Positions 1 through 2,127 of a DNA stretch of 64,000 nt are shown here, in pieces (position 1 is the first letter of the stretch; each line of letters starts with the position of its first letter). The position numbers and the translations under genes are program-made. The notes beneath the pieces were generated by a model. That model did no database searches and was not told the origin of the DNA. It saw nothing but the letters and a program-made list of their open reading frames with translations. Source of the stretch: Oceanospirillaceae bacterium (lineage in GTDB: Bacteria > Pseudomonadota > Gammaproteobacteria > Pseudomonadales > Oceanobacteraceae); the NCBI GenBank assembly GCA_002724925.1, contig PBQA01000016.1, positions 62,001-126,000 of the forward strand. The letters run 5' to 3'.

Positions 1-60
1 ACATATTTCAGATATGGATAGAGAACGAGCATTGTAAGCAGCATATATTGAATTATCCAT
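1..60 (-). CDS. 5' end of a gene truncated by the window edge; possible P-loop ATPase (tentative)
   Basis: Reverse complement of 1-60 reads ATG GAT AAT TCA ATA TAT GCT GCT TAC AAT GCT CGT TCT CTA TCC ATA TCT GAA ATA TGT = MDNSIYAAYNARSLSISEIC, open to the edge. Its ATG overlaps the phosphoesterase stop (ATGGATAA). 'YNARSLSISEI' resembles, from memory, the 'NARxLxxxEV' N-terminus of some bacterial ATP-binding proteins. Product is inference only. Confidence 0.45.
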   Translation of the reverse strand, partial: MDNSIYAAYNARSLSISEIC

Positions 61-1240
61 TGGACACTCCTATTTCTTTGAACTCGTTCCCAGAAATATC
101 AGCGATGTAACCCTCATCCTTAAATTCCGCCACAAGAACTTCGAGATCTTCTGGCATCAAGTGTTTCAAGTAGCTATTTAAATGCTTTATCTCACTATCT
201 TTTGCAATTCTTTTAGAACTATTTTCAAATATCTTAGCAACTTCTTCAATAATTTCCATTGACTTCAACGCTGAACCAAATCCACCTCTTTCAGGCAAGG
301 AATTACCTTCCGACAGTCGCCACCCTGATGTCATTGTCCATTCGTATGTTCTAAACTCTCCAGTAACACCGCCATTCTTAGCCGTCGCATCCAAATCCAC
401 ACTCAACACATAAAATTGGTTTGTAGTCCTGTCTTTAATTTTAGGGTACAGCTTTGCGGAAAGACTACCAGCCGAAAAAACAACCGGCCTAGAAGCTCCT
501 CTAGAGGGGCCATACTTAATATCAGGAAAATGTTTGTGACCATGTACAATCAACCAAGGACCCTTCCTACTATTCTGAACAGCTTCGATCAAATACTCTC
601 CCCCATCGATAGCCTCATAGTCTTCCTCTTGGTCCACATAATCCATTCTGAAAGGGTGATGATGAGTAACTAAAAGATTAAACTTCTTTTTTCTAACCGC
701 TTCGGATTTCATATAGTCTCTAATCTGATCTGCTGTCCTATTCGGAACTCTTCCATGCTTCCACTCATCACCATAACCGTGAAATGCGCTACTATTGACA
801 GATATCAAATTAAATTCTTCGTATTCTTTATGAGCCCAATTCCAAGCCCAGAAATGAGTATTATCGACTTTATTTGGAAACGGAAAATCATCTACTGAAA
901 ACTGCAAATTGTACTTTGGACAATGTGAGTTATTTAGCCTAGAATCATGGTCATGATTTCCAGGGACAACTATCAGGTTTTCTCTAGCAACTCGACTGTA
1001 GTCAGCAACATCCTTGACAAATTTCCATCCTACATCAAACCCTACCGGCGAACTTTTGTTAGAAATATCTCCGGAACACACCACATAATCTAGATTTACG
1101 TCTAGTTCTGATATTTTTTCCAGTATGCTCTTTGAAAACTCGTCATCCTCAGTCAATAGCCTAGTATCTTGACTAGATCCAGAGTTTTCCATGTGAAGAT
1201 CAGAGAAAACAAGCAAATTCAACATTCCATTGTCATTCAT
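53..1240 (-). CDS. Calcineurin-like metallophosphoesterase
   Basis: 395 aa ORF with the full motif set: FSDLH, CSGDIS, VPGNHDHD, THHHPF, HGHKH. Confidence 0.9.
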   Translation of the reverse strand: MNDNGMLNLLVFSDLHMENSGSSQDTRLLTEDDEFSKSILEKISELDVNLDYVVCSGDISNKSSPVGFDVGWKFVKDVADYSRVARENLIVVPGNHDHDSRLNNSHCPKYNLQFSVDDFPFPNKVDNTHFWAWNWAHKEYEEFNLISVNSSAFHGYGDEWKHGRVPNRTADQIRDYMKSEAVRKKKFNLLVTHHHPFRMDYVDQEEDYEAIDGGEYLIEAVQNSRKGPWLIVHGHKHFPDIKYGPSRGASRPVVFSAGSLSAKLYPKIKDRTTNQFYVLSVDLDATAKNGGVTGEFRTYEWTMTSGWRLSEGNSLPERGGFGSALKSMEIIEEVAKIFENSSKRIAKDSEIKHLNSYLKHLMPEDLEVLVAEFKDEGYIADISGNEFKEIGVSNG

Positions 1241-2060
1241 AATTTTTTACCAATATCTCACTTGCCACGTCCCAATTTTTCTTAAAGCCAGATATATGAC
1301 GCTTTACACTCACATCACTTACTATGTACTTTTCCTTCAATTTTTTTATAACTTGGGGAGTAGCCTTGTATGATAGTAAGAAATAAGCTTTTTTCTGATC
1401 TATGCGTTCCAACCAAGAATAAAGTTCTTCAAGTCTATCTGAGTCGAAACTACCAACTCCATATTCACCTGTAAATCGCCCACTATCAGAATAAGGTGGA
1501 TCTAGATAGACAAAGTCACCCTTTTTAGTAGCTCTAATGGCATCCCTTGCATCTAACCTTTGAATTGATGCCCGTAACAGCGAGTTCCGTATATGCTCAT
1601 ACTCTTCTTTAGAGGGAAACCCCCCTGTTCTACTACCATATGGGACATTAAAGAAACCCTGTCTGTTTGTTCTATAGATACCATTAAAGCAGTATCTATT
1701 TAGATACAAGAAACGCACTGCTCGGGAAAATTCATCTAAGACCTCAGGCTTCTGCGCTCTCAACTCATAATAATATTCTTTAGTTTGAGGAAGAGCACAG
1801 AGGACCGAATAAATATCAGCCCTCTCACACACCTGATTGTAAGCATTAATGAGTTCAGGGTTAAAATCGGATAATAGTGCTGATTTTGGCTGAATATGAA
1901 AAAACAAACACGCTGAACCGCAAAACGGTTCAACGTATCTTGTAAACCCAGCTGGAAGGTTTTTCACCAATACCGGTATTAACTTACGTTTACTCCCCGC
2001 CCACCGAATCAGTGGCTTAGAAGGCATTTCAATAACATCATTGGATAGGGTTATCACCAT
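1233..2060 (-). CDS. D12-class DNA adenine N6-methyltransferase (Dam family)
   Basis: Motifs IRWAGSKRKL, YVEPFCGSACLFF and YLDPPYSD. Alternative start at MPSKPLIRW (about 2027). Confidence 0.92.
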   Translation of the reverse strand: MVITLSNDVIEMPSKPLIRWAGSKRKLIPVLVKNLPAGFTRYVEPFCGSACLFFHIQPKSALLSDFNPELINAYNQVCERADIYSVLCALPQTKEYYYELRAQKPEVLDEFSRAVRFLYLNRYCFNGIYRTNRQGFFNVPYGSRTGGFPSKEEYEHIRNSLLRASIQRLDARDAIRATKKGDFVYLDPPYSDSGRFTGEYGVGSFDSDRLEELYSWLERIDQKKAYFLLSYKATPQVIKKLKEKYIVSDVSVKRHISGFKKNWDVASEILVKNYE

Positions 2061-2127
2061 CAGGACAAAATTCCATTCTCAATTCGATGTAGACTACCGG
2101 AGCATTACTGAACTTTTCCATTGGTTG

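Follow-up and report, generated by a model that had tools for sequence, protein, structure and literature searches.

A four-gene cassette beside purL

The window analysed here, a stretch of 64,000 nucleotides from an Oceanospirillaceae bacterium, corresponds to G000:C10:62001-126000, and the 468-kb contig runs on past its edge. At this edge lie, on the reverse strand, a gene for a Dam-family (D12) adenine-N6 DNA methyltransferase (MTase) of 275 residues (1233..2060; PF02086, TIGR00571), a gene for a calcineurin-like metallophosphoesterase of 395 residues (53..1240; PF00149, E 3e-11) and the first 20 codons (1..60) of a third gene. An earlier note on this DNA had read the first two products, and the overlaps between the genes, as the open reading frames and family matches now bear out; it had guessed from 20 residues that the third product is an ATPase, and had asked for the contig to be extended in the 5′ direction. 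The extension shows that the third gene is cut by the window edge only, and that its complete frame (G000:C10:60303-62060, reverse strand; L002:14303-16060) encodes a P-loop ATPase of 585 residues, matching the ORC-CDC6-like family PF24389 (E 5.4e-92, 309.8 bits, cut-off 27), as the guess had it. Directly after the ATPase gene comes a fourth one, for a CARF6 protein of 303 residues, which lies outside the window (G000:C10:59395-60306; L002:13395-14306) and was missing from the earlier account, as was the exchangeable effector slot described below. Genes 1 and 2 share the eight-base start/stop overlap ATGAATGA (1233..1240, reverse strand) and genes 2 and 3 the eight-base overlap ATGGATAA (53..60, reverse strand), both suggestive of translational coupling, and genes 3 and 4 overlap by four bases. 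The MTase start is separated from the purL stop by a 67-base gap (2061..2127, reverse strand).

The four-gene block, of 4.7 kb, has a GC content of 38.6%, against 51-52% in its surroundings, in keeping with the AT-richness remarked on before. GATC is mildly depleted in the cassette (16 sites, 22.5 expected) and in the window (289, 334.8 expected). The cassette stands directly downstream of purL and has a RelE/NadS toxin-antitoxin pair on its other side. The content of this spot varies among congeners: those with 76-88% identical purL DNA carry other genes there, and in two of them the same toxin-antitoxin region occupies the spot without the cassette. A strong PF24389 match was found in 8 of the 392 genomes sampled from the order (the window's own counted) and in none of the four congeners within that sample. 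In Thalassolituus sp. UBA1087, whose PurL protein is 85% identical, a 50%-identical cassette also adjoins purL, and the purL-adjacent site has thus been used repeatedly. When 72,556 plasmids were searched separately with the CARF6, ATPase and phosphoesterase proteins, each search returned the same five records, with the genes adjacent; two of these plasmids are conjugative. Several other copies lie on chromosome-sized contigs, and known defence genes are among the neighbours of some cassettes in a plain family count, made without a control set. Judged by its low GC content, variable insertion spot and plasmid carriage, the cassette is mobile and patchily distributed.

Other features of these surroundings were also recorded. 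The RelE-type toxin and NadS/MqsA-like antitoxin that adjoin the cassette lie at L002:12618-13239; the antitoxin is conserved beside purL in the genome G733, and the toxin-antitoxin region is present, without the cassette, in G736. Near the pair there is a sequence of 42-46 bp (L002:12477-12522), inverted copies of which stand beside purL in three congeners (L140, 2509-2554, reverse complement; L141:9607-9648; L142, 2635-2676, reverse complement). It may bound the purL hotspot; in the window genome an inverted copy beside purL was not seen. Beside the Methylobacterium plasmid cassette, a gene for a CHAT protein with a weak TPR-S match and one for a second metallophosphoesterase (L006:10475-13947) likely form another defence operon.

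The ATPase, the CARF6 protein and the phosphoesterase

The nucleotide-binding motifs of the ATPase, namely Walker A (GPRGSGKT, called invariant) and Walker B (DELE), are near-invariant in its homologues. One of these (L005:6983-8743) is labelled in RefSeq as an EutP/PduV microcompartment protein, a name that seems to be a P-loop misannotation. The product of gene 4 matches the PADLOC CARF6 family PDLC01918 (E 4.6e-98), and the cassette thus has the arrangement of an ORC-CDC6-like/CARF6 system, in which the CARF6 gene comes after that of the PF24389 ATPase. Residues D98, Y128, G171, G255 and K257 of CARF6 are invariant, and E22, R24 and E173 are further conserved positions. As the only match of its sequence profile in the PDB was a designed protein, a fold search was needed. 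The predicted structure (pLDDT 95.9) matched in Foldseek the SAVED domains of Cap5 and Cap4 and the CARF domains of Csm6 and Cam1, with E-values of about 1e-4 and modest TM values of 0.3-0.4, and it also matched unrelated Rossmann folds. The model therefore supports a CARF/SAVED Rossmann-like fold, and CARF6 is a putative nucleotide-binding sensor or regulator.

In the phosphoesterase, D14, H16, D58, N95, H96, H193, H235 and H237 are invariant or near-invariant in the homologue alignment. Its predicted structure (pLDDT 93.9) finds Lmo2642, Rv0805, SMPDL3A and GpdQ ahead of Mre11, and both sequence and fold comparison place it closer to class III cyclic-nucleotide phosphodiesterases and SMPDL3A than to SbcD/Mre11, so that a DNA nuclease is not the sole reading of this protein. 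The SbcD model reaches 19.5 bits, below its cut-off of 77.65. No endonuclease family of Pfam or NCBIfam scores above cut-off in any of the four proteins, and the endonuclease-labelled matches in PADLOC are weak, partial and confined to the phosphoesterase domain. The analogy with SbcD/Mre11 and SbcC drawn in the earlier note does not hold, since the ATPase is ORC-CDC6-like and not of the SMC/ABC type; a nuclease/ATPase pair of the SbcCD kind was rejected on this family and fold evidence. The phosphoesterase also matches two defence models, DS9_1 (E 3e-19) and DS8 (E 1e-8), far under their cut-offs. SMPDL3A-like metallophosphatases are described as enzymes essential to the anti-phage systems DS-8 and DS-9 (PMC13092281), and the calcineurin-type effectors of other conflict systems have been predicted to be nucleotidyl phosphodiesterases (PMC7159879).

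Conservation of the unit and its link to host Dam

A scan of genome contigs with the single ATPase sequence gave nothing; an alignment of ATPases, used on bacterial and archaeal species genomes, gave 80 loci, 73 of which are complete enough for gene order to be judged with profiles of the four proteins. In all 73 the genes for phosphoesterase, ATPase and CARF6 follow one another in a single order and on one strand, with the phosphoesterase gene, as the enzymatic effector, immediately 5′ of the ATPase gene. The co-occurrence of the genes across genomes, which the earlier note had proposed as a check, is thus borne out, with hosts that include Pseudomonadota, Bacteroidota, Actinomycetota, Acidobacteriota, Verrucomicrobiota, Planctomycetota, Gemmatimonadota and SAR324. 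The four proteins also agree in their pairwise distances, which are correlated at r 0.75-0.88, the maximum of 999 permutations being 0.17. At the level of sequence, phosphoesterase, ATPase and CARF6 are therefore one conserved unit. No relative of the ATPase was found in the viral contigs and phage genomes searched; within these sets, then, it is not carried as phage cargo.

The MTase matches the D12 and Dam models (PF02086, E 1e-44; TIGR00571 Dam, 204.5 bits, cut-off 114.85) and has a DPPY motif that is invariant across 59 homologues. The nearest solved structures are DpnM (1e-40) and EcoDam (8e-28). The equivalents of EcoDam N120, R124 and P134, residues known from the EcoDam-DNA complex, are retained in the cassette MTases, and the closeness to DpnM and EcoDam, together with these residues, makes GATC the likely target site. 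Against this site, the position of EcoDam K9 is Arg in 53 of the 59 homologues, and Y138 is not conserved.

A Dam-family MTase gene stands immediately 5′ of the unit in 55 of the 73 complete loci and is absent from that place in 18. Two of these 18 (L054 and L077) have the MTase on the opposite side of the unit, and in three (L019, L020 and L024), whose hosts lack Dam, the slot is taken by a D12 MTase of another kind, the D12 match having been computed for L019, of which the other two are homologues. In L071 a Dam-type MTase (308 bits) lies 3 kb away, beside a DUF6996/DUF6997/DUF7226 protein (L071:1653-3810), possibly a DpnII-like restriction-modification pair next to an MTase-less cassette. 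The remaining loci have no MTase. Host genomes were searched with the Dam model, and each match was sorted as belonging to the cassette or lying elsewhere. For 12 MTase-less cassettes, L071 among them, the host could be searched; 11 of these 12 hosts carry a Dam elsewhere (242-314 bits), as do all seven hosts in the subset with the full upstream sequence, against 3 of the 55 hosts of MTase-bearing cassettes, the window's included, with another Dam over the cut-off (Fisher 3e-9; 2e-7 with the seven full-upstream loci). The lone exception is L066, whose 4.6-kb contig was placed in a metagenome bin of 1.3 Mb and is near-identical to L060; one of these two cassettes is in a Nitrosomonadales bin and the other in an Alteromonadaceae bin, and the L066 contig may be misbinned. 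The MTase-less state has six origins on a quick ATPase tree. In a paired phylogenetic test with five supported contrasts, a mean of 4.5 go in the same direction and none in the opposite one, with p 0.0625 at best, since a sign test on five independent contrasts cannot pass 0.05.

These counts show that, in the loci compared, the MTase accompanies the unit, the exceptions being mostly in hosts whose genome has another Dam. Read most simply, they mean that the METHYLTRANSFERASE of the cassette is replaceable by another Dam, Dam-type methylation being needed and suppliable in trans. As MTase-less cassettes occur with a host Dam and MTase-bearing ones mostly without, the cassette probably requires GATC-type methylation, as in restriction-modification, and the repeated absence of the MTase amounts to a natural complementation experiment. 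Alternatively, the MTase could be missing from Dam-positive hosts because double methylation is harmful and not because it is redundant; this would account for the losses, but it leaves the retention of the MTase in nearly all Dam-less hosts unexplained. Complementation by a host Dam also fits that part of the earlier note which saw a methylation-protected, non-classical restriction-like design, the part that does not stand being its effector pair of the SbcCD type. We found no description of Dam redundancy for such cassettes in the literature searched, though an earlier one is possible.

Candidate mechanism, wider family and known systems

In more distant PF24389 loci the CARF6 gene is kept downstream of the ATPase and the effector changes; some of these family assignments rest on small home-made profiles. 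An HD-CE effector goes with a C5 cytosine MTase in L121, L123 and L163; in L120, L161, L164, L166 and L167 an N6 or C5 MTase accompanies a PRTase-CE or a protein weakly resembling PRTase; and in L124, L125, L127 and L169 the PRTase-CE goes with a HAD protein, no MTase being seen. The MTases of the distant loci have the motifs PCQ/ENV or NPPY/NPPF. L165, with an N6 MTase and a broken ATPase frame, looks degraded. The MTase-less loci with PRTase-CE, ORC-CDC6-like ATPase, CARF6 and HAD protein (L124:4734-11477, with NADAR too; L127:4167-10251; L169:5821-11882) are possibly a methylation-independent subtype. There are also longer ATPases, of about 830-1240 residues, with PF24389-like domains (L126:5040-8759, L170:6060-9770, L168:6332-8830 and L171:6243-8804); a weak CARF6 match adjoins those of L168 and L171 and not the two longest.

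We propose, with a probability of about 0.6, that the cassette is a mobile, restriction-like defence operon in which methylation marks self, the ATPase and CARF6 sense, and the phosphoesterase answers. Self DNA would carry a mark set, probably at GATC, by the MTase or by a host Dam. The ATPase and CARF6 would survey DNA and be switched on by unmethylated foreign DNA, CARF6 acting as a nucleotide-binding sensor or regulator, and the phosphoesterase would be the effector. With moderate confidence, we consider it more likely that this effector acts on nucleotides or on a nucleotide signal than that it is a plain restriction endonuclease, because elsewhere the ATPase and CARF6 core has HD or PRTase in the slot, and a PRTase is, to our knowledge, not expected to cleave DNA. 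An effector that cleaves nucleic acid is possible. Should it be a nucleotide enzyme, self recognition by methylation would be tied to nucleotide-targeting immunity, a combination that we did not find described. More tentatively, the cassette and its relatives might form a restriction-like immune family that works without site cutting, in which methylation licenses self, the ORC-CDC6-like ATPase and CARF protein are the sensor of unmethylated DNA, and an interchangeable nucleotide-acting enzyme, be it a phosphodiesterase, HD or PRTase, responds. Such a family would join the logic of restriction-modification with that of nucleotide-signal immunity.

Conventional restriction, by an ATPase-powered DNA nuclease of the Mre11/SbcD type whose cleavage is blocked by GATC methylation, with CARF6 as a structural subunit, would agree with the complementation of the MTase by Dam, the calcineurin fold with its complete metal site and the presence of Mre11/SbcD among the fold and sequence matches. 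It is made unlikely by the weak score of the SbcD models, the rank of Mre11 well below Rv0805, SMPDL3A and GpdQ, an ATPase that is not SbcC-like, and the sister systems, in which the effector slot is occupied by HD or by a PRTase, with no DNA cleavage expected of the latter. A scheme of the CBASS or type III kind, where CARF6 senses a cyclic or modified nucleotide that the phosphoesterase degrades as an off-switch, or by which it is activated, and where the MTase only tunes triggering, can draw on the SAVED and CARF folds matched by the CARF6 model and on the phosphodiesterase-like character of the phosphoesterase. We regard it as improbable, since the four genes include no nucleotide cyclase and a scan of upstream genes in relatives lacking the MTase found none. 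Plasmid carriage (two plasmids being conjugative), the adjoining RelE/NadS pair in the window genome and the selfish restriction-modification logic of an MTase with a toxic partner recall a selfish module for addiction or maintenance, or else the epigenetic regulation of a mobile element; the cell would then die once the MTase is lost, and defence would not be primary. We give this reading little credence, in view of the several copies on chromosome-sized contigs and the known defence genes among the neighbours; moreover, maintenance and defence can coexist. That unrelated genes were dropped by chance into a hotspot, as the variable purL-adjacent site of the congeners might suggest, is already contradicted by an order kept in 73 of 73 loci over several phyla and by correlated distances.

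By the families that its proteins match, the proposed restriction-like defence operon is not a type II restriction-modification system, SbcCD or CBASS. With the first it shares a DNA MTase, near DpnM (1e-40) and EcoDam, but no restriction endonuclease family was detected in its four proteins (Pfam, NCBIfam). With SbcCD/Mre11-Rad50 it shares a calcineurin fold beside a P-loop ATPase, whereas neither the SbcD nor the SMC/ABC-type SbcC family matches the cassette. CBASS and type III CRISPR differ by their cyclase, which is found neither in the four genes nor in the genes scanned upstream in related cassettes without an MTase. BREX combines self marking by a DNA MTase, a phosphoesterase-type component (PglZ) and an ORC/Cdc6-type ATPase (BrxC/BrxD), without a classical type II endonuclease (PMC12839542). 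The cassette, with its MTase, phosphoesterase and ORC/Cdc6-type ATPase, resembles it in outline; however, no homologue of PglZ, PglX, BrxC or BrxL is among the PADLOC and Pfam matches, and the CARF6 protein belongs to the cassette. DS-8 and DS-9, reported in DefensePredictor work, depend on a metallophosphatase active site for defence and resemble the cassette in the sub-threshold model matches and SMPDL3A-like fold of its phosphoesterase, but DS-8 consists of one protein that includes NACHT, the partner in DS-9 is a HAD protein, and for neither system is an MTase or a CARF protein described in the part of the source that we drew on (PMC13092281).

Others have already catalogued components of the wider family: PADLOC has profiles for CARF6, and Pfam lists PF24389-PF24391 as consecutive entries. 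In the literature on CARF6, PF24389, PRTase-CE and CARF with metallophosphoesterase we found no description of the whole, though an earlier one is possible. What was a guess from a truncated locus has become a defined, testable four-gene system across several phyla. It shares with the HD-CE (PF24391) and PRTase-CE (PF24390) loci the ATPase family (E 5e-92), the CARF6 family group and the order effector-ATPase-CARF6, several of those loci also having a DNA MTase, whereas its own effector is a metallophosphoesterase, its MTase is of the Dam family, and its ATPase and CARF6 form a separate branch, with cross-matches of about E 1e-5 to 1e-22.
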